This document shows, piece by piece, positions 24,547 through 35,030 of a DNA stretch of 64,000 bases (the first letter of the stretch is position 1; each line of letters opens with the position of its first letter). Both the position numbers and the translations under genes were made by a program. This DNA is from Arcanobacterium bovis. Its GTDB lineage: Bacteria; Actinomycetota; Actinomycetes; Actinomycetales; Actinomycetaceae. A model generated the notes under the pieces. The model saw nothing but the letters and a program-made list of their open reading frames with translations, had not been told where the DNA came from and did not search any database. The stretch lies in NCBI RefSeq assembly GCF_004331995.1, contig NZ_SJDT01000001.1, positions 248,001 through 312,000 on the forward strand, in the 5' to 3' direction.

Positions 24547-26169
24547 ATGAAGAAAAGTTTGTACGCTCGGCAGCTTAATGCGATATCCAAGACTGCATTA
24601 ATGGAGGGCTTATTCGTGCATGGAATGTTTTCTGACAAGTTACCTCCGATTTTTCAGAGCCATCTTTTTGCCGAATGGAGGAAAGCTTACAAACCTTGCA
24701 CACAAACGGGCACGTGGCGCGGACACATCGAATTTTGGCAACATCGCGATAACGGTAAACGAAGGAAAATTGATATTCCTGAACCATTTTCATATTACGA
24801 CCTTTGCAACGCAATCGCTGAACATTGGTCTAGCGACTTGGTGCCACACTTTGAACGGATGACCGAAGACGATCAACATAAAGTGAGCAGACTCCATGTC
24901 AGAAGGCTTCGTGATACGAAGTCAATTTTTAAGATGACATATAAAAATTTCAAAATAGATGGTTCTGACGAAATCCAGATGAGCACGAATAACCGGTATG
25001 TTGTTAGAACCGATATTTCATCCTGTTTTCCATCAATTTACACTCATGCTTTTTCCTGGGCCGCGATAGGAAAAAATGAAACCAAAAAACAAGTGAAGAA
25101 TAACGAACATAAGACTGTGTGGGACACACTCGATACACTCACTCAAGCGCATATGAATGGTGAGACCCATGGTGTCCCAATCGGTCCTATAGCCTCACAC
25201 GTTCTCGCGGAAATAATTTTGACAGCTGTCGATAAGGATATAAAAGAGGCAGGTTTTCGATTATTTTATCGCAATATTGACGACTACACCTTTTACGGAA
25301 AAACAATTGATGAATGTGAACGCTTTATAGCACAATTTACAAGATCACTTAGCATGTTTGGGCTAACGCCAAATACAGAAAAGACTATGATCGAGGAATT
25401 ACCCCAGTCAGCAACATCGGCTTGGGTAAGAAAGGTTCGTAATCATATTGTTGTTTCGAAACGCTTGAATAGAAAGAAGAATCAAGCGAAGGGTTTACTC
25501 AAATTCCCACAAATCAATGATTTTCTTGATGATGTTCTGGAAATCGTTCATAACGATGGAAACAAAGCAACGTCAATGAAATATGCCTTTAGTATGCTCA
25601 AGAAATACAAGCTAACTACGAATGCAAAAAAGGCATTAATTTCACGAGCCGTTAATATGTGCTACATATTTCCGTACATAACACCTTTGCTCTGGGAGGG
25701 CATTATTGAACCGCATGACCTTGTTTTTTATACGCGAACCAATATGCTTAATTCACTGAAAGATCTTTATCAAAATAGGCTTTCAATGAATGACTACTCA
25801 AGTTGTGCTTGGATAATTTATCTATATGACAAGCTCGACGTCCACGACGAAACCTTTGATGTAAAGTTCGACAATAAACTAATAGAGGATGGAGTTCTCC
25901 TTGCTACTTATTATTTCTATTGCCTTCGTAGCAATAATGTTAACAAACTTGTCGATCTCCGCAAAGAAGCAGACAAGATTCTAGACACAATTATCGAACA
26001 AGCTCAAAAGGATAAATCCAAAGCACTCCCATATTTTGATGAAAATTGGTTGTTTCTATACGAAGCATGCAGCAAAAAGAAACTTAACGCGCTTAACCAA
26101 CATTATGGACAAATGAGAAAAAACGGAGTTACTTTCTTCGTGGATTCCGCTAACGATAAGGCCAGTTAA
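24547..26169 (+). CDS. Abi/UG-type antiphage reverse transcriptase
   Basis: A 540-residue protein with an RT palm: first catalytic Asp156 in RTDISSCFPSIYTH, HGVPIGPIASHVLAEI, and the second pair Asp245-Asp246 in YRNIDDYTFYG. The usual YxDD is therefore NIDD, with Asn in place of the Tyr. The C-terminal ~200 residues are helical, as in Abi and UG RTs, with no integrase, maturase or intron domain. The IYTH-x3-W-A stretch is shared with Abi/DRT RTs, but I cannot assign a UG group. It is strongly A/T-rich, unlike its neighbours. AAAGG precedes ATG 24547, 40 bp after Res, so it may be co-transcribed. Confidence 0.85.
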   Translation: MKKSLYARQLNAISKTALMEGLFVHGMFSDKLPPIFQSHLFAEWRKAYKPCTQTGTWRGHIEFWQHRDNGKRRKIDIPEPFSYYDLCNAIAEHWSSDLVPHFERMTEDDQHKVSRLHVRRLRDTKSIFKMTYKNFKIDGSDEIQMSTNNRYVVRTDISSCFPSIYTHAFSWAAIGKNETKKQVKNNEHKTVWDTLDTLTQAHMNGETHGVPIGPIASHVLAEIILTAVDKDIKEAGFRLFYRNIDDYTFYGKTIDECERFIAQFTRSLSMFGLTPNTEKTMIEELPQSATSAWVRKVRNHIVVSKRLNRKKNQAKGLLKFPQINDFLDDVLEIVHNDGNKATSMKYAFSMLKKYKLTTNAKKALISRAVNMCYIFPYITPLLWEGIIEPHDLVFYTRTNMLNSLKDLYQNRLSMNDYSSCAWIIYLYDKLDVHDETFDVKFDNKLIEDGVLLATYYFYCLRSNNVNKLVDLRKEADKILDTIIEQAQKDKSKALPYFDENWLFLYEACSKKKLNALNQHYGQMRKNGVTFFVDSANDKAS

Positions 26170-26323: not shown

Positions 26324-27520
26324 ATGGCACTCGATAAAGAAACAATCATTATAGCCATAAAGCATGAGAAATGCGCAATAAGCCGATCGGTGTTCGAGAT
26401 GCTACTTGAGAATTCGATTGCTTACAGTGATTCTAATTTTCTTGATGCACTAGAACACGGTCGAGTTCAGTTTGCAACACTTCGACAGCTCGCCGAGAAA
26501 ACACGTGTACCTTTACCACTATTCTTTGCTCCTGAGGATTTCGTAAAATCACAAATCAAACAACAAAACGATATTTTGATTGCAAATTATACCAACCAGA
26601 CCATCTATATGAATTCGCGTAATTCATTGGATGTACGAGATATCCAGCTTATAGTCAAAGATTTAATCCAAAAACGCGAGACAATCAAAAGGCTGTATAA
26701 ACCAATTCCAGATAACAACATTACTGGCAGCCTCAAACGACGTGGGCTCTCAATTCAGGATGATGCAACAAAACTATCGAAATTATTAGGTTTTCACATA
26801 GAGCATTTTCGGAGTTATCGAGAGAAAGAAGACGCATTCAGATATATAGTGGAACTCGCCGAGCAATCCCGCATTTACGTTTCTCGGACACAACAGCACG
26901 TAATGCCTCAACGAATAACCAAGCCATCATTCAGTGGTTTTCTTCTAAAAGATAGAAAAATCCCCTACATATTTTTGGCAAATAACAGCAATGGAGAATT
27001 TGAAGAAGTTGCAGGGCGCAGAATCTTCACACTTTTATTGCTAATCGTCATGCTAGCACGGGGCATATACCAACCTGTTGCTTTGTCTGACGTTGAAAAT
27101 GAATCAAGTGATTCATACGAGTATGATCTCGTCGGAGAAATTTTGCTTCCCAAAGAAGATTTAATCAAAGCAGACCCCGTTGGACTTGAAGAGATGAAAA
27201 CACTCGCTTCAGAGTGCAAAGTAACTCCGAGCATGGTCGTGGTCAGATGCCAGCGTGTTGGATTGATTTCCAAAGAAGCAAGAATGCAGCTCCTAGACGA
27301 ACTTCGGGAAGAGTGGGAAAACTCTACGAGTCATTATAGGCGAAATCCATCACGATGGAATCAAGTGCTACGGTATAGCGGCCACGAGTTTACACGACAG
27401 ATGTTTAGTGCGCTGGAGAAAGGAAAGATCAGCCGTCCAGACTTCCTTCGCATTGCTACCCTGAACAAGTTGACTAGTAAGCAGATTTCTTCACTTCAGG
27501 AAGCCGCATATGGACATTGA
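26324..27520 (+). CDS. XRE-ImmA/IrrE-family protein lacking the zinc motif
   Basis: A 398-residue protein that follows the XRE plus ImmA/IrrE layout. It has an N-terminal TLRQLAEKTRVPLPLFFAPED segment of the HTH domain, the peptidase fold in the middle, and a C-terminal GKISRPDFLRIATL helical tail. Where the family has a GRRRFTLAHELGH-type zinc helix, this protein reads GRRIFTLLLLIVMLARG (about 231-247), so HExxH is gone while the later E-x-LLP element (VGEILLPKED) remains. It is probably a non-proteolytic antitoxin or regulator. It overlaps the PIN gene by 11 bp. An ATG with no clear ribosome site and a TACTAT box nearby suggests its own promoter. Confidence 0.75.
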   Translation: MALDKETIIIAIKHEKCAISRSVFEMLLENSIAYSDSNFLDALEHGRVQFATLRQLAEKTRVPLPLFFAPEDFVKSQIKQQNDILIANYTNQTIYMNSRNSLDVRDIQLIVKDLIQKRETIKRLYKPIPDNNITGSLKRRGLSIQDDATKLSKLLGFHIEHFRSYREKEDAFRYIVELAEQSRIYVSRTQQHVMPQRITKPSFSGFLLKDRKIPYIFLANNSNGEFEEVAGRRIFTLLLLIVMLARGIYQPVALSDVENESSDSYEYDLVGEILLPKEDLIKADPVGLEEMKTLASECKVTPSMVVVRCQRVGLISKEARMQLLDELREEWENSTSHYRRNPSRWNQVLRYSGHEFTRQMFSALEKGKISRPDFLRIATLNKLTSKQISSLQEAAYGH

Positions 27521-27953
27521 TACGCACTACTTTTTGGATACCAACGCGCTCACACGGCTACATCCAAAGGAACGCACCGGTAACTTCTTCATGAAAAATT
27601 GCCATATTCCATCATCAGTCTTAAACGAAGTTGGAGACCCCATTGACAAAGGCAAACTTTCAACTTTGGAATATCCAATAAATGCTAAAATCCTTGAAAT
27701 CGTGAAACGAATCATGGAAAAGCTGGACATCCACGATACCTCTCTCGTCAATTTATACTCTAATAAGGGAACAGCCGATCCATTTCTTGTTGCCACTGCA
27801 ATCTACGCTCGTGATCTAGAAGCTACAAAATTATTCTCAACGTTATACATAGTCGTTTCTAATGATAAAGCTGTCCGTAAAATTTGTGACTGTTTTGATG
27901 TTGAGACGATTGATTCGACTACTTTCCTAACAATTCTTAAGGACAACACATAG
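27510..27953 (+). CDS. PIN-domain nuclease (toxin candidate)
   Basis: A 147-residue PIN-fold protein. The conserved acidic set is visible: Asp10 in FLDTNALT, Glu40 in SSVLNEVGD, Asp90 in GTADPFLVATAI and Asp119 in VVSNDKAVRKI. These coordinate metal for RNA cleavage. It resembles the DUF4411-like PIN proteins encoded next to XRE-ImmA/IrrE proteins. The gene begins inside the end of that upstream gene (ATG 27510), so the pair is translationally coupled and reads as a toxin-antitoxin or abortive module. Whether it targets tRNA, mRNA or phage RNA is unknown. Confidence 0.8.
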   Translation: MDIDTHYFLDTNALTRLHPKERTGNFFMKNCHIPSSVLNEVGDPIDKGKLSTLEYPINAKILEIVKRIMEKLDIHDTSLVNLYSNKGTADPFLVATAIYARDLEATKLFSTLYIVVSNDKAVRKICDCFDVETIDSTTFLTILKDNT

Positions 27954-28815: not shown

Positions 28816-29730
28816 ATGTCCACGCCAAAAACAATCGAATTATTCCTTCTGGACGGTACCGCTGCGGGACGTAAGAAAGCATCGCTCAGCAACTGGACCG
28901 GCGTCGTCTTCCTGTTGCCCCGCACCACAATCGAAACCTCTCGAGACCGCGACGATCTTCGCCAGACCGGCGTCTACTTCCTCTTTGGCACCGACGATTC
29001 CGACAAAACAAAGGTATACATTGGCCAAGCCTGCGAACGCAAGAACGGCCAAGGTGTACTCGCCAGAATCATCGAACATCGCGAGGAAAAACTTGACTAC
29101 TGGACCCACGCGATCGCTCTGATCACTTCCAACGACTCGTTCGGCCCCACCGAGATCAGCTACCTCGAACACCGGTTCACACAGATGGCACGCGATGCGG
29201 GACGCTACGACGTCGCCAACGGGAACGATCCTTCAATCGGCAAAGTGACAGAAGAAAAGCGCGCAGAGCTGGACGAATTCATCACCAACGCTAAGCTACT
29301 AATCGGAGTGCTTGGCTATCGCGTCTTCGATCCGATCAACGAGGCACGTAGCGTCACGCCAGAGGCTCCCCACGAGCTCACCAACGCCGATGCCGGAGCC
29401 ACTGCCACCGTCGAACCGTTACTACAACTCACCTGGGGAAGCGCTCAGGCCACTGGCCGGCAAACCTCTGACGGATTCGCCGTGCTCGCCGGCTCAAAAC
29501 TCCGCCCGGAAACGGAATTCACCAACACGGTTCCTGGTTCTGCACTCAAACAACGCGAGCGCTACCGCGACGCTATCGACTCTTCAACCTCTACCCTGGT
29601 CAAAGACGTGTTGCTCGCTAGTCCCTCGGGTGCGGCGGCATTCGTCGTTGGCGCTTCGGCCAACGGTATGACAGCATGGAAAACTGAAGACGGCGTCACG
29701 CTTGCGGAACTTGAGAGGCGGGAAGAATAG
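28816..29730 (+). CDS. GIY-YIG nuclease family protein with DUF4357
   Basis: A 304-residue protein. The GIY-YIG core is present: GVY at 52-54, YIG at 68-70, the arginine helix ARIIEHRE near 83-90 and the metal-binding glutamate near 117 (SYLEHRF). The C-terminal ~110 residues match DUF4357 (GFAVLAGSKL, then SPSGAAAFVVGASANGMTAWK). Such proteins occur in bacterial genomes as stand-alone nucleases of uncertain role, often near restriction systems. Its G/C-rich composition resembles the chromosome rather than the RT-PIN segment, so it may be older than that insertion. Confidence 0.88.
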   Translation: MSTPKTIELFLLDGTAAGRKKASLSNWTGVVFLLPRTTIETSRDRDDLRQTGVYFLFGTDDSDKTKVYIGQACERKNGQGVLARIIEHREEKLDYWTHAIALITSNDSFGPTEISYLEHRFTQMARDAGRYDVANGNDPSIGKVTEEKRAELDEFITNAKLLIGVLGYRVFDPINEARSVTPEAPHELTNADAGATATVEPLLQLTWGSAQATGRQTSDGFAVLAGSKLRPETEFTNTVPGSALKQRERYRDAIDSSTSTLVKDVLLASPSGAAAFVVGASANGMTAWKTEDGVTLAELERREE

Positions 29731-29845
29731 TGTTACCCATGCTCTTCTCGATACTTTCCAACCAAGTTGTCCCCTCGGTCTCTGGCTCTCCGATTCTGTA
29801 TTCCGTCTATGAATACAGCCAGTTCATATCATCTGTTGTCTCCCT

Positions 29846-30187
29846 TTAATGCACAGTCTTGCAATCATCCAGAACCACCCGCACGAGCTCCTCAAGATCC
29901 TCTTCACTCAACGGAAGCTCAAACGCCGTCGGCGCCTGCTCTACCAATGGATCGCGTGGCGTCGCACGCTTGCCACCCAGATTCACCTCCACACTTATCC
30001 GATCTACCAGCGCGTGTACATCCCCAGAATTCGGATCCTTGTCAAGCGACTGCAAATTCACCAGCACCTGCACATCGTCCCGCCATGCCTCAACCCATTG
30101 CCAGCCGGTGAGGTCAAACGGAGGATCCAGCCGCCGCCCACTTCCATCTTCGCGACAAGATTCCCATCCCCACAACAAGACTTTCAC
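29846..30187 (-). CDS. Unknown small protein behind the TTTACACTCT array
   Basis: About 113 residues from GTG 30187, reading KVLLWGWESC, then WQWVEAWRDDVQVLVNLQSL and an acidic C-terminus (PLSEEDLEELVRVVLDDCK). Codon composition is coding-like, but there is no ATG, no clear ribosome site, and a longer frame reaches 30214. It lies downstream of the AlbA_2 regulator gene and just after six TTTACACTCT-type motifs, so it looks like a regulated second gene. It could also be a remnant. No family is recognised. Confidence 0.45.
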   Translation of the reverse strand: MKVLLWGWESCREDGSGRRLDPPFDLTGWQWVEAWRDDVQVLVNLQSLDKDPNSGDVHALVDRISVEVNLGGKRATPRDPLVEQAPTAFELPLSEEDLEELVRVVLDDCKTVH

Positions 30188-30198
30188 AGTGCAAAAAT

Positions 30199-30328
30199 TA
30201 CACTTACAGTCCAAGTATTTTTACACTCTGAAAAAAAGTTACACTCTCGAGTCGATATTTACACTCTTCGCTCCGAAGTGCAGTTTTGCACCAAAGAGAG
30301 CAACTCCCTGCGTCACTTTTTCACTCTC
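30199..30328. repeat. TTTACACTCT motif array, gene-distal (left) block
   Basis: Five motifs in one orientation: TTACACTTA (30199-30207), TTTTTACACTCT (30219-30230), TTACACTCT (30240-30248), TTTACACTCT (30259-30268) and TTTTTCACTCT (30318-30328). Three are spaced ~20 bp apart. The array lies between the end of the AlbA_2 regulator gene and the small gene 29846-30187, where that gene's promoter must be. It is probably a set of operators for the AlbA_2 protein. Confidence 0.75.
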
Positions 30329-30339
30329 GAATTAGCAAT

Positions 30340-31938
30340 CTACTTATTCCAAAGCCCCTCGCGCGCCCAGGGTTCCACGCTGTACTTGGTTGTTTTGACT
30401 CCCCACCCTCCGTCACGTTGCACTATTCCTACAGCAAGCAGTTTGTTCAATACATACCGCACTTGCCCAACGGACAATCCCGAAGATTCAACAAGCTCAG
30501 AAACCGACATGCCGTCAGGTGCATTTCGGAATGCTGCAAGTAACGCGTATGCATTCTTTCTAATTGCACGCCCAAAATTTTCTAGTAATACAACTTCCGG
30601 CACTCTCTCAGCAGACGGCAAGGTCGCGCTTTCCAAAGTAAGTTTCGATGTTTCCTCGCGTTCTAAGGCTTCAACACCCGATTCGGAACCACGCTTAAAA
30701 TTTGATTTTGATGCGTATAAAATCACCGTAAATTGCACACCTGTATCTTGAAACGAAGGTTCCGGTAATCCCGCATCGCGTACCTGTTTGAATACTTCTC
30801 GAACTCCTGCACCTTCACCTTCAATAACATTGTTACCCGAGGCTGAAGTTACATGTTTAGCCATATCGTACAGCCGTGGATTGACTGCGTTTTTCGTCAA
30901 AGTTGCACTCTTCAACTGTTCAGTAGACACGCCACGCAATCCACCTGGATTTACGATCACCAAGCGATCAGCACGCACACGTACCTCAACCCACTTGCCC
31001 TCAGTGTTTGGGCTCAAATCTCGATGCACCAATGCGTTAGCTAAAAGTTCCCGCACTGCAGGCAATGGATACACACTCTCTTCTCGCATATTTCCATCAC
31101 TTAAATAACGATTCTGGCGAGGAGTGTTCTCCTTTACCCATGCGAGTACGTCTTCCAACAGGTCAGGCAACGGCCCATCAAAATCTTTTCTATTTCTAGT
31201 CCGAATACCTTGAGCATTGGCAGGATTCTCCACTGCGGCGGTAATGCGCAATTGCGGAGCTTTCGCCTGCGGATAGTAACCAAGGGCATATAGTCCAGCT
31301 AATGTTAACTGTCCATCTTCAGTTTGAATGTTGCATGTGCGGAGCAATACGTCGTCATCCTCTATTTGCGCTAGGCGCTTACTCTTCGCACGCACGTCTT
31401 TGAGATATCTATCGACAAGTCCCTGATCGAGATCATCTACTGCCGAATTCGTCACCGGCACAACGTCAAATCTATATTGTTCTGTATGCGATGCTTTCTG
31501 AATTTCAATAAGCGCATAATCAGAATCATTCATCACATAATCGCCATCCGACTGGCGCAAATATGCTTTCCCACCGTAACGCGCCGGGCGTTGTGACAAT
31601 GGTAGCGGAATTACTTCAATAACGAGCACGCTTTTACCGTCAATATCAAAAATCTCATGCATAAGCTGCGGAGCAGGAACCACAGCATTACGAATCTGAC
31701 TCACTACCTCGTTAAACATCTTATTAGGATCATCAAGACCTATAACAGCAAAGTTGTACTCTTCTGCGACTCCCAGAATGATCGTTCCACCTTCAGGCAT
31801 GTTCGCGAAAGCACACACGGTTTCCGGCAGATTCTTCGGCAAATGCGATGCGCGTTTCACCTCAATACCAGTTGCGTCACGCCCAATCTCGCGAAAATCA
31901 GCGAGGCGTTGAAGTATCGCTTCTTTAGTCCACGTCAT
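30340..31938 (-). CDS. AlbA_2/HATPase_c_4 transcriptional regulator
   Basis: A 532-residue cytoplasmic protein of the COG2865 class. The N-terminal AlbA_2 (Schlafen-like) domain has GIEVKRASHLPKNLPETVCAFANMPEGG-type residues (seen at ~22-52, ending GGTIILGV). The centre has the HATPase_c_4 region (RELLANALVHRDLS, RLVIVNPGG). The C-terminus is a winged helix (GMSVSELVESSGLSVGQVRYVLNKLL). These proteins are predicted DNA-binding regulators with an ATPase-like domain. Its gene is flanked on both sides by TTTACACTCT-type motifs, which makes autoregulation likely. It lies at the edge of the defence island and may also control the small gene downstream. Confidence 0.85.
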   Translation of the reverse strand: MTWTKEAILQRLADFREIGRDATGIEVKRASHLPKNLPETVCAFANMPEGGTIILGVAEEYNFAVIGLDDPNKMFNEVVSQIRNAVVPAPQLMHEIFDIDGKSVLVIEVIPLPLSQRPARYGGKAYLRQSDGDYVMNDSDYALIEIQKASHTEQYRFDVVPVTNSAVDDLDQGLVDRYLKDVRAKSKRLAQIEDDDVLLRTCNIQTEDGQLTLAGLYALGYYPQAKAPQLRITAAVENPANAQGIRTRNRKDFDGPLPDLLEDVLAWVKENTPRQNRYLSDGNMREESVYPLPAVRELLANALVHRDLSPNTEGKWVEVRVRADRLVIVNPGGLRGVSTEQLKSATLTKNAVNPRLYDMAKHVTSASGNNVIEGEGAGVREVFKQVRDAGLPEPSFQDTGVQFTVILYASKSNFKRGSESGVEALEREETSKLTLESATLPSAERVPEVVLLENFGRAIRKNAYALLAAFRNAPDGMSVSELVESSGLSVGQVRYVLNKLLAVGIVQRDGGWGVKTTKYSVEPWAREGLWNK

Positions 31939-31942
31939 ATTT

Positions 31943-32024
31943 AGAGTGTAAAAACTTTCACTCTAGAGTGCAAATATTTTTACACTCTACATCTAGATTT
32001 ACACTCTTTAAAAAGTTTCACTCA
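31943..32024. repeat. TTTACACTCT motif array, promoter-proximal (right) block
   Basis: Six motifs directly upstream of the AlbA_2 gene (start at 31938): AGAGTGTAAA (31943), TTTCACTCT (31956), AGAGTGCAAA (31965), TTTTACACTCT (31978), TTTACACTCT (31998) and TTTCACTCA (32016). The second and third form a 19-bp palindrome at 31956-31974. It is a strong candidate operator array covering the promoter. Confidence 0.8.
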
Positions 32025-32082
32025 TACCGATGTTTGATCCACACAAGTCAAACTTGCCTTTGCACTTGATACCAATCAAAAC

Positions 32083-32131
32083 GACGACGGACGCGCACCA
32101 CACCTTAAAGTGTAACCACACGTCCGTCGTC
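32083..32131 (-). terminator. Terminator of the choice-of-anchor M gene
   Basis: Eleven-base perfect arms GACGACGGACG and CGTCCGTCGTC, with an inner CACACC/GTGTGG-like pairing, are followed on the minus strand by CGTTTTGATT. It is well placed to end transcription of the 32235-35030 gene. The gap to the regulator (31939-32234) otherwise holds only the motif array. Confidence 0.7.
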
Positions 32132-32234
32132 ATCCGGTTTCATTTACGAATCCCTGGGATCACACAGCCCCAAAGCTCGCTAGGGCTATGTCACTGGGAG
32201 CGACCCTATCCAGCCCTCCAGGGCAACCCGATCC

Positions 32235-35030
32235 CTAAGCCATCCGGCGCATCTGAACCAGTCGCATCGCCTGTAGCACCGTATTTGCCAGCAACAACAC
32301 CACACCAGAGCCGATCAGCGTATTGGTGGTCGTCCACCCGCCTGAGCCTGAGCCTGCACCGTCGGAACTCACCATAGCGTCGCCCAAACCGGTGCCGCTC
32401 AGCGACTTCACGCTGGCATTCTCGCCACCCGCAACGCCATCGCCCAAGCCAGTACCATCAGCCAAGCTCGCATCGCCGCCCGCAAGTGCATCGTTAAGCG
32501 AACCCAGCACATTCGTGGCCACCGTGCCTCGGCCTACGCCGCCACCTGCACCGCCGCGTCCAGCACCAGTTCCAGCAGAACCGGCGAGCGCTTGACCAAT
32601 CGCTGCTCCGAAATCGAAATGACCGCTGGTCACGCCGTCGCCCGAACCAACATTAAACACCAAAGTGCCGTGGTTCGACACCGTCTTCCCATTCTTGAGC
32701 GTCGCCGTGGTGGTAATTCCTACCCGATACGTGCCCGCCTTGGTAAACACCCAGTTCGGATGGGCGTGCACGTTCGGATTGAGCACGATCGAGCCGCCTA
32801 CCGACCCGTTCACACCCGAGAAAATCCGCTGGCCCGCGCCTCCAAAGTTATTCGAATAAAACACTTCCATCGCGCCCGGCCCCGAGAACGACGTAAGCGC
32901 CAGCTTCAAATGACCAGTCGTCTTCGCAAGGAGTGTGGGGTGTTGGGAGTTGATACCCAGCCACGGCACGCCCGCCACCTGGCTACTCGAGATCATCCAC
33001 ACCGCGCTACCAGCTGGAATACGCCCGATATTCTCCGACGTCGTCGCGCGCCCAGCGTCGCCAATCGCAAACGCGAGCGAACCCGGATTCACCCACTTCG
33101 CAGGTTGTGAGCGGTCATCTTTAATCATCGGCAAAATCGCGTCAACGTATTGCGGTTGATTCACCGCCGGAACCACAGTGGCGATGCCGCTACCATGCGT
33201 CGGAGTTCCAGGCGCATTGCCCGACGCCGGTTGCGGGCTTAGTTGCGAACCAGGCTGTGGGCCGGGGGCAGGTTGCGAACCAGGCTGCGGCTGCGCGTTT
33301 CCTGTATCTGTACCCGATCCGCCTGGCACGCCGTCATTCGGCAGCCCATCGTTCGCACCCGGCATCGGCTGCACGTCACCTGGCGATGGCTGCACCTCGC
33401 TCGGATCGCCCTTGTAGGTGCCGTCAATCAGCTCTTTTGGCACATCATTGCCCACGTACCAAATATAAGTTGCCTCGTTCGACACGGTAGACGCACCCGC
33501 GCGCGCATCCTTCGCCCGCATCTTCATCGTGTAGACGCCGGGCTTTGTGAAAACCCAGTTAGTGTGCACGTGCGCAGGATATGCTTGATGAATCTTGTCG
33601 CCCGTTTGCAACTCAAAATGACCCGAGGCCAGGGGTGATGCGGGACCGTTGAAACCACCAATTTGATAAGTAAATACTTTTCCTGGCCCCTTGACCTCGA
33701 GAAACTCTAAATCAATCGCGTCAAAATCAGGGCGCACCGCACCGGTATCCCAACCGGGGAATGGTAGCACTCCCTGTTTATCACCACTTTGGCCAAGGAA
33801 GTAACCTGCCGGCACTCCAAATTTGCTTGCGAACTGCGCGGGAAACTTCGTAATGGCCGCCTCCCCCACGTGCACAATAATATCCTCGGCCCTGCGCTCA
33901 ACCGGGCTCGACCCCGTGTCGTCCTTGGCATTCAGAACGAGTTTTCCGTCCTTCGCAATCACGTGGAAAAGGTCGATATGTCCTTTACTCAGCACCAAGC
34001 GGGGTGACGACGCCGTTCCAGGAGTTCCAGGAACAGGCGAGTTTGTCTCGGGGGACGTTCCGTCCGTGTTTCCGGTGCCAGGCTGCGTTTCGCCAGGCTG
34101 AGTTGGTGACGGCGTATCCGCGCCGTCGTTTGCGTCGTCGTTCGCACCGTCATCAGCATTTCCTGGATCGGTATTGCCGCTACCGGGCTGTACAGTGCCA
34201 GTATCGCCAGAACCTGGATTTGCTGGTGACGGAGCAGCAGGAAGCTCGGCAGTATCTGGGATTTCAGACAGCACCTTCGCGGCCGGAGCAGGTCGCTCAT
34301 CGAGACCATTCTTCAGCACGTTGAAAGTGAGCGTGAAAGAATCGGAGGCTACTTGCGAACCATCCTTCTTAATGACGATCGCACGGCCGGTTAACGTGTA
34401 CTTTCCAGCATGCTCGAAGTACCAGTGTCCATGCTGGTGGCCCGGAATAGGCAGCACATCGCCCGCTTGGATATACAGGTTCTTACTTTCCATGAACGGC
34501 ACGATAGCATCGGAACCATCGTCAGCCACCGACATCTCGTTGTTGTTGAAGAAGCTGATCTTGCCTGGACCGGTGACCTTCGTGAACTTGATCTTCACTT
34601 TCGCGCCGAGGTCGTCTTGACCAGGGGCGCTCATGCCCGGCTCGGCACCAGAAGCACCACAAGCACTGTAGTATCCGTCTTTGCTCGACTCTCCAAGTTG
34701 CGGGTAGTAGCCGTTGTCGAAGAGTTCGAACACTTCAGCACACTTCTCAGTTTTGATGTAAGCGGAGTTCGCAATCTGAATCTCAGTGGAATCCATATTA
34801 TAGAGGTTGTTATTTATGCCGTTGCGAATCATCACCTTGGGATTATCGCCGGTGATGTCCACATAGAATGCGTCGGTATGATTACGGTCAATAACCGTCT
34901 GTCCAAAGGCTTTTGCCGTCAGTGGGGCGAATACAAGCGCGAATGCTGCCACGAACGCGAAGATGATCTTTACTCCGAGACCATTTCGGTGTAGCCGCGG
35001 CTCGTGTGCCTGCGGGTTTGAGATGCTCAT
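32235..35030 (-). CDS. Choice-of-anchor M surface protein
   Basis: A ~931-residue exported protein. The signal peptide is IIFAFVAAFALVFAPLTAKA and the C-terminal helix (TNTLIGSGVVLLLANTVLQAM) with MRRMA tail anchors it. Three modules carry the actinobacterial surface repeat H-x-H-x2-W-x-F (GHQHGHWYFEHAGKY, HVHTNWVFTKPGVY, HAHPNWVFTKAGTY), separated by Pro/Gly/Asp-rich linkers. No LPXTG is present. Relatives are linked to zinc or manganese ABC transporters. ATG 35030 is chosen for its AGGAAG at the correct distance; the frame opens at 35060. A Zur-like palindrome lies just upstream. Confidence 0.85.
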   Translation of the reverse strand: MSISNPQAHEPRLHRNGLGVKIIFAFVAAFALVFAPLTAKAFGQTVIDRNHTDAFYVDITGDNPKVMIRNGINNNLYNMDSTEIQIANSAYIKTEKCAEVFELFDNGYYPQLGESSKDGYYSACGASGAEPGMSAPGQDDLGAKVKIKFTKVTGPGKISFFNNNEMSVADDGSDAIVPFMESKNLYIQAGDVLPIPGHQHGHWYFEHAGKYTLTGRAIVIKKDGSQVASDSFTLTFNVLKNGLDERPAPAAKVLSEIPDTAELPAAPSPANPGSGDTGTVQPGSGNTDPGNADDGANDDANDGADTPSPTQPGETQPGTGNTDGTSPETNSPVPGTPGTASSPRLVLSKGHIDLFHVIAKDGKLVLNAKDDTGSSPVERRAEDIIVHVGEAAITKFPAQFASKFGVPAGYFLGQSGDKQGVLPFPGWDTGAVRPDFDAIDLEFLEVKGPGKVFTYQIGGFNGPASPLASGHFELQTGDKIHQAYPAHVHTNWVFTKPGVYTMKMRAKDARAGASTVSNEATYIWYVGNDVPKELIDGTYKGDPSEVQPSPGDVQPMPGANDGLPNDGVPGGSGTDTGNAQPQPGSQPAPGPQPGSQLSPQPASGNAPGTPTHGSGIATVVPAVNQPQYVDAILPMIKDDRSQPAKWVNPGSLAFAIGDAGRATTSENIGRIPAGSAVWMISSSQVAGVPWLGINSQHPTLLAKTTGHLKLALTSFSGPGAMEVFYSNNFGGAGQRIFSGVNGSVGGSIVLNPNVHAHPNWVFTKAGTYRVGITTTATLKNGKTVSNHGTLVFNVGSGDGVTSGHFDFGAAIGQALAGSAGTGAGRGGAGGGVGRGTVATNVLGSLNDALAGGDASLADGTGLGDGVAGGENASVKSLSGTGLGDAMVSSDGAGSGSGGWTTTNTLIGSGVVLLLANTVLQAMRLVQMRRMA

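Follow-up and report, generated by a model that had tools for sequence, protein, structure and literature searches.

Arrays of a private, operator-like motif bracket a solitary Schlafen-type gene of Arcanobacterium and suggest negative autoregulation

P0001, a Schlafen RNase-type protein encoded by a solitary gene in a 64,000-nucleotide stretch (the window, G000:C1:248001-312000) of a 2.02-Mb Arcanobacterium sp. genome, probably represses its own gene by cooperative binding of its winged helix-turn-helix (wHTH) domain to phased copies of a private motif, and the repeats of this motif that bracket the gene would make it excisable. A sequence-only reading of the window had proposed the motif as an operator, and the comparative data support this proposal, as the motif is locus-specific, kept in a relative, helically phased, self-specific at many homologues and diverges along with the protein. 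A private motif that is located at the gene's own promoter and co-diverges with its product is the pattern to be expected of a putative autorepressor. The features of the locus and its surroundings are compiled in Table 1.

Table 1. Features of the P0001 locus and neighbouring elements in window coordinates.
Feature	Position	Strand	Basis or remark
P0001 gene, AlbA_2 (Schlafen core)-GHKL ATPase-wHTH, 532 aa	30340..31938	-	Pfam, profile matches, AF2 model, Foldseek
Operator-like array upstream of the gene, six sites in both orientations	31942..32024		in the roughly 90 bp preceding the start codon
Site TTTACACTCT, exact	31943..31952	-	window scan
Site CTTTCACTCT, left half of CACTCTAGAGTG palindrome	31955..31964	+	
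Site TTTGCACTCT, right half of CACTCTAGAGTG palindrome	31965..31974	-	
Site TTTACACTCT, exact	31979..31988	+	window scan
Site TTTACACTCT, exact	31998..32007	+	window scan
Site GTTTCACTCA	32015..32024	+	
Palindrome	31956..31974		two sites facing each other
Downstream array, echoing the upstream array	30186..30330		four clear and two weak sites, up to about 155 bp past the stop codon
Clear downstream sites	30220, 30238, 30258, 30318(+)		
Weak downstream sites	30186(-), about 30196(+)		
Decayed 5'-truncated gene remnant, not a regulon member	29846..30214	-	matches in three Arcanobacterium genomes
Replaceable block, P0001 gene with both arrays	30143..32077		G059 homology breakpoints
Probable terminator of the surface-protein gene	32083..32131		11-bp perfect inverted repeat
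Probable DRT4-like reverse transcriptase gene	24547..26169	+	PADLOC, NCBIfam
Overlapping genes resembling a toxin-antitoxin pair	26324..27953	+	398-aa and 147-aa proteins
Candidate defence gene, PDC-S14	28816..29730	+	PADLOC

Allowing at most one mismatch, the motif TTTACACTCT occurred 14 times in the window compared to 2.8 expected occurrences, a number reached by none of 100 shuffles, and eight of these 14 matches fell within the two previously described blocks that bracket the P0001 gene. An exact-pattern search of the whole genome, one of the checks suggested by the sequence-only reading, returned seven copies: five were part of the P0001 locus, and the remaining two had no second site within 300 bp. 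A wider regulon was rejected on the grounds that these two exact copies, the only ones elsewhere, are lone sites. The count of six sites before the start and about five beyond the end of the gene was confirmed, with five or six found downstream depending on the weak ones, and the clustering lies far beyond chance. The upstream array exceeded dinucleotide shuffles (p=0.01), and the motif defined in it recurred in the downstream block (p=0.003). When aligned as direct repeats the two blocks matched at 50 of 63 positions. The reported 19-bp palindrome does consist of two facing sites with a perfect 12-bp core (CACTCTAGAGTG), but over its full 19 bp it is imperfect.

Both blocks are kept in the sister species A. 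pluranimalium, the only one returned by a first genome-wide scan for relatives, where the counterpart of P0001 is 94% identical at the protein level. The upstream block is 97.8% identical between the two species, with all 60 of 60 site bases unchanged, and the downstream block 94.5%. Identity is 67% for the DNA just outside the upstream block and 80.5% for the next gene, so that it steps at the outer edge of the array. This step hints at recombination ending there, although the cause may simply be the fast evolution of a surface gene. Past the stop codon of this surface-protein gene an 11-bp perfect inverted repeat (GACGACGGACG...CGTCCGTCGTC) is kept in relatives and probably constitutes its terminator. 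Since a promoter scan detected no sigma-70 promoter above chance in the upstream array, our explanation has to assume that the sites serve repression and not activation. A reading of the arrays as RNA structure was discarded, as no Rfam match was obtained in 29700-32300 and the sites occur in both orientations with DNA-like phasing.

Pfam divided P0001 into an SLFN_AlbA_2 domain (residues 24-136; PF04326, E 7e-18, 65.7 bits at a cut-off of 25.3), a HATPase_c_4 domain (residues 314-407; PF13749, E 6e-20, 71.4 bits at a cut-off of 26) and a C-terminal HTH_IclR winged helix (residues 463-510; E 3e-7, 30.4 bits at a cut-off of 22), and no transposase or integrase domain was among the domains found. 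A profile of the family matched 3lmm, 2kyy, SLFN8/11/12/14 and MarR-type wHTHs. The AF2 model (mean pLDDT 86, about 90 for the helices of the C-terminal winged helix) matched 3lmm along its length in Foldseek (E 2e-23), with weak matches to the SAMD9 tRNase domain, GHKL kinases and TubR. Near-invariant positions in the family alignment were D21 (58/61), E26 (58/61), K28 (59/61) and E59 (57/61), which we take to be counterparts of the Schlafen RNase active-site residues. The GHKL motifs (R296, E297, N301, H305, R306 and NPGG) were invariant or nearly so. P0001 thus carries all four putative hallmarks of the Schlafen-GHKL-wHTH proteins, namely core domain, acidic residues, GHKL and winged helix. 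The earlier assignment of DNA binding to the AlbA_2 domain appears doubtful, as this domain resembles Schlafen RNase cores with the acidic triad kept and would be expected to have RNase activity; the C-terminal winged helix is the more likely DNA-binding part. A PADLOC match to pAgo (2e-23) covered residues 12-414, the AlbA_2-GHKL part, and profile positions 30-441 of 1121, and in the absence of a PIWI domain in Pfam an Argonaute identity was rejected. Such pAgo profile matches to AlbA_2-GHKL proteins without PIWI may yield false Argonaute calls.

PMC12839542, which cites Taboada et al. (bioRxiv) on bacterial Schlafens, presents Schlafen RNases of bacteria in which a wHTH and a minimal histidine-kinase (GHKL) domain are fused to the core and which are linked to BREX/BR loci. 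The class including an anti-phage role is already described. P0001 shares with these proteins the three-part architecture, the acidic triad, the GHKL motifs and the nearby defence genes, but it is solitary and not part of a BREX operon; no BREX genes were found among the scanned immediate neighbours of the P0001 gene, which is thus not BREX-associated there. Genes of this kind are presumed to defend against viruses. For the P0001 gene the sole defence context is the reverse transcriptase gene listed in Table 1, nearest to Drt4 (PADLOC 1e-155; NCBIfam 296 bits, below the cut-off of 450), together with the PDC-S14 gene, which encodes a DUF4357 C-terminus, adjoins the variable slot described below and is kept in G059 and A. 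pluranimalium. Between these two genes a 398-aa protein is encoded in overlap with a 147-aa DUF4411-like (PIN-type) protein.

The best fold matches of the P0001 model were the structural-genomics protein 3lmm of Corynebacterium diphtheriae and the RecG-related N-terminal domain 2kyy, for which the papers searched gave neither function nor DNA site. Genes of this kind are usually annotated as COG2865 or 'RecG-related ATP-dependent DNA helicase', a label that stems from HATPase_c_4, whereas P0001 has no helicase domain. Operator arrays, bracketing repeats and solo arrays are unmentioned in the available portion of PMC12839542, and the open literature searched yielded no description of self-specific arrays, bracketing repeats, solo arrays or a defined binding site for the class, which is not proof of their absence.

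To place the arrays in a family context we analyzed 59 usable homologues, mostly from Actinomycetaceae, several of which are orthologues and hence non-independent. For each gene we took the 200 bp preceding the start, determined the best repeated 9-mer there and then scored it in the 200 bp past the stop, with 150 neighbour genes treated in the same way as controls, mostly ordinary neighbours rather than matched accessory genes. An upstream array (p<=0.02) was present in 27 of 59 homologues compared to 4 of 150 controls and not significant in the other 32, and at least two downstream matches to the upstream motif were found for 14 homologues and one control. The array trait is thus frequent in the family, not universal. 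Outside Actinomycetaceae arrays were seen in L168, L169, L176, L186 and L192, whereas most of the more distant homologues had no significant array; scoring of the more distant homologues covered all except L188 and L193-L195. Spacing between adjacent sites clustered near 11, 20-21, 31-32 and 41-42 bp, a pattern that proteins aligned along one face of the helix would produce, and L084 had eight upstream sites exactly 21 bp apart.

The motifs fell into about 15 classes that differ between loci (e.g. GTTGGA, TAGACAA, GAGATAACT, CTATGAGATAG and CATGGACAC) and were common to close homologues only. On average a motif matched the promoter of another family gene 0.00-0.11 times when the proteins were less than 50% identical, 0.54 times at 50-70% and 4.8 times above 70% identity, compared to 5.3 matches at its own gene. 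A paralogue in the window genome (26% identity to P0001) had its own motif GTGTAGTGT, present seven times upstream and five times downstream of the gene. Under cognate autoregulation a private motif would be expected to co-diverge in this way with the protein encoded next to it. Across 20 loci no conserved partner gene was shared, and no consistent gene followed the downstream arrays. A plasmid-borne family was rejected with just three distant plasmid matches. In two phages the family gene adjoins the integrase gene or lies a few genes from it, with repeated ACTCTAAA sites in Gordonia phage Nymphadora and a palindrome at the gene start in Mycobacterium phage Squirty. The actinophage members L196 (2884-4314) and L197 (2914-4350), near an integrase gene and annotated as DNA helicase, may be phage repressors; in phages immunity repressors are usually located near the integrase gene.

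The downstream block had previously been placed in front of an unknown small gene. Matches to this ORF were confined to three Arcanobacterium genomes (G000, G032 and G059), and its homologues were broken in both relatives, by a split frame in A. pluranimalium (G032) and by a stop codon in G059. The G059 frame runs further 5', which identifies the window ORF as a truncated remnant, and the ORF had no Pfam, NCBIfam or PADLOC match. G059 does not contain the AlbA_2 gene; its homology with the window breaks off at 30142 and restarts at 32078, and the slot is filled by an unrelated gene for a 440-aa membrane protein (L104, 8088-9410). Based on these breakpoints the P0001 gene and its arrays are the occupant of a variable slot and have removed the 5' portion of an older gene. 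No clean empty counterpart of the window gene's site was found; the G059 slot holds the unrelated gene. That P0001 controls this small gene in addition to itself, as initially suggested by the array lying just before it, is now very improbable: the decay and truncation of the ORF remove the chief argument for a two-gene regulon, and the downstream arrays of other loci lead to no consistent gene. A better explanation of the downstream block is that the array is present in a second copy, which in many relatives is a near-identical direct repeat.

This was examined by aligning the 350 bp before with the 350 bp after each gene and counting scores of at least 45. Direct repeats were found around 22 of 59 homologues compared to 1 of 149 controls, including near-identical arrays at L106 (150 bp, 96%), L088 (88 bp, 93%) and L083 (76 bp, 97%). 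In other cases the repeat was host DNA instead of an array: terminator-like hairpins were repeated at L034, L052 and L073, the 3' end of a gene that we take, from its translation, to be purB at L035 and L071, and a 178-bp gene 3' end of the host at L045. As five relatives have this 178-bp end just once at the collinear position, L045 represents an insertion with duplication of host DNA. In several genomes of genus g4 (L035, L037 and L071-L073) the Schlafen gene directly follows the presumed purB, whose 3' end is repeated beyond it in L035, L071 and L072.

The paralogue in G000 is bracketed by an 88-bp array, and the collinear A. pluranimalium site has a single array and no gene; with both flanks collinear the two loci differ by 1617 bp, corresponding to one gene and one array. 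Conversely, the bracketed A. pluranimalium gene L106 is represented in G000 by a single diverged array. Collinear empty sites with one repeat copy were thus found for both of these genes, unlike for the window gene, whose own slot differs, and recombinational deletion explains them equally well as insertion. At L105/L151 identity between the sister species also steps at the array, from 94-97% on the ybaK side to 84-86% on the other, hinting at recombination ending there. No array was found at the ybaK site in more distant Arcanobacterium, where the noncoding DNA is hard to compare.

Several other readings of the arrays were weighed. Both could be functional operators bridged by bound protein, the loop silencing the whole gene, a possibility we entertain tentatively in view of the 94.5% conservation of the downstream sites in A. 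pluranimalium and the motif common to both blocks in 14 of 59 members. Such looping is compatible with autorepression, but neither it nor the downstream array can be generally required, because many members with strong upstream arrays lack it (L084, eight sites upstream and none downstream). Another highly improbable reading takes the arrays as iterons or centromere-like sites for replication or segregation. TubR binds repeat arrays, and the P0001 wHTH resembles the part of TubR that binds DNA (Foldseek TMt 0.71, E 0.01), so that a TubR/ParB-like protein was considered; the gene is, however, solitary and chromosomal without a partition NTPase or replication gene, one genome has two private arrays, and several phylum members have none.

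Rather unlikely, in our estimate, is a single-gene mobile element with the arrays as ends or attachment sites, whose protein, a putative sequence-specific binder and ATPase with a nuclease fold, would help to excise the element or to integrate it at arrays. This reading would account for the alternation between array-gene-array and solo array in both directions between the sister species, the direct repeats at 22 of 59 homologues, the insertions duplicating host DNA (L045, and L035/L071 with the presumed purB 3' end), the absence of conserved neighbours across 20 loci and the members beside integrases in Gordonia and Mycobacterium phages. On the other hand, an integrase or transposase domain is absent, the acidic triad fits Schlafen RNases, RecA-dependent recombination between direct repeats suffices for solo arrays, and no further array copies were found elsewhere in the genome. 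We likewise give little credence to a combined version with array-bracketed, self-contained units, in which the private array serves as operator and recombination site, the protein promotes excision or insertion and solo arrays record lost copies.

According to the autorepression explanation that we favour, the wHTH of P0001 would bind the copies of its private motif (TTTACACTCT) at the promoter of its own gene, and oligomers placed side by side on the phased sites would repress the gene. The level of a potentially harmful RNase may thereby be kept down until the gene is released by a signal. This signal would most likely be phage infection, and the ATP-binding module is the likely switch through which it acts. 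The direct-repeat arrays would provide a substrate for recombination by which the gene is removed leaving one array or is reinserted there, and the downstream array could be a by-product of the unit's acquisition or a second anchor for looping. With respect to known systems, P0001 resembles the BrxR/WYL defence regulators and AbiEi as a wHTH protein encoded near defence genes that would use repeated sites to govern the locus it comes from; in those systems the regulator is separate from the effector, whereas P0001 appears to be both in one. Similar to LTRs and solo LTRs, direct repeats flank a coding unit and recombination leaves one repeat, but the P0001 unit contains neither reverse transcriptase nor integrase and its repeats are predicted binding-site arrays.

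Schlafen-GHKL-wHTH proteins are widespread and mostly annotated as RecG-related helicases. A private operator that can be read from sequence alone would provide a ready binding assay and reporter for each protein, and the array illustrates how a possibly toxic RNase might stay quiet. From the about 15 natural protein-motif pairs a recognition code for the wHTH could be learned, and solo arrays would let lost defence genes be read from genomes.
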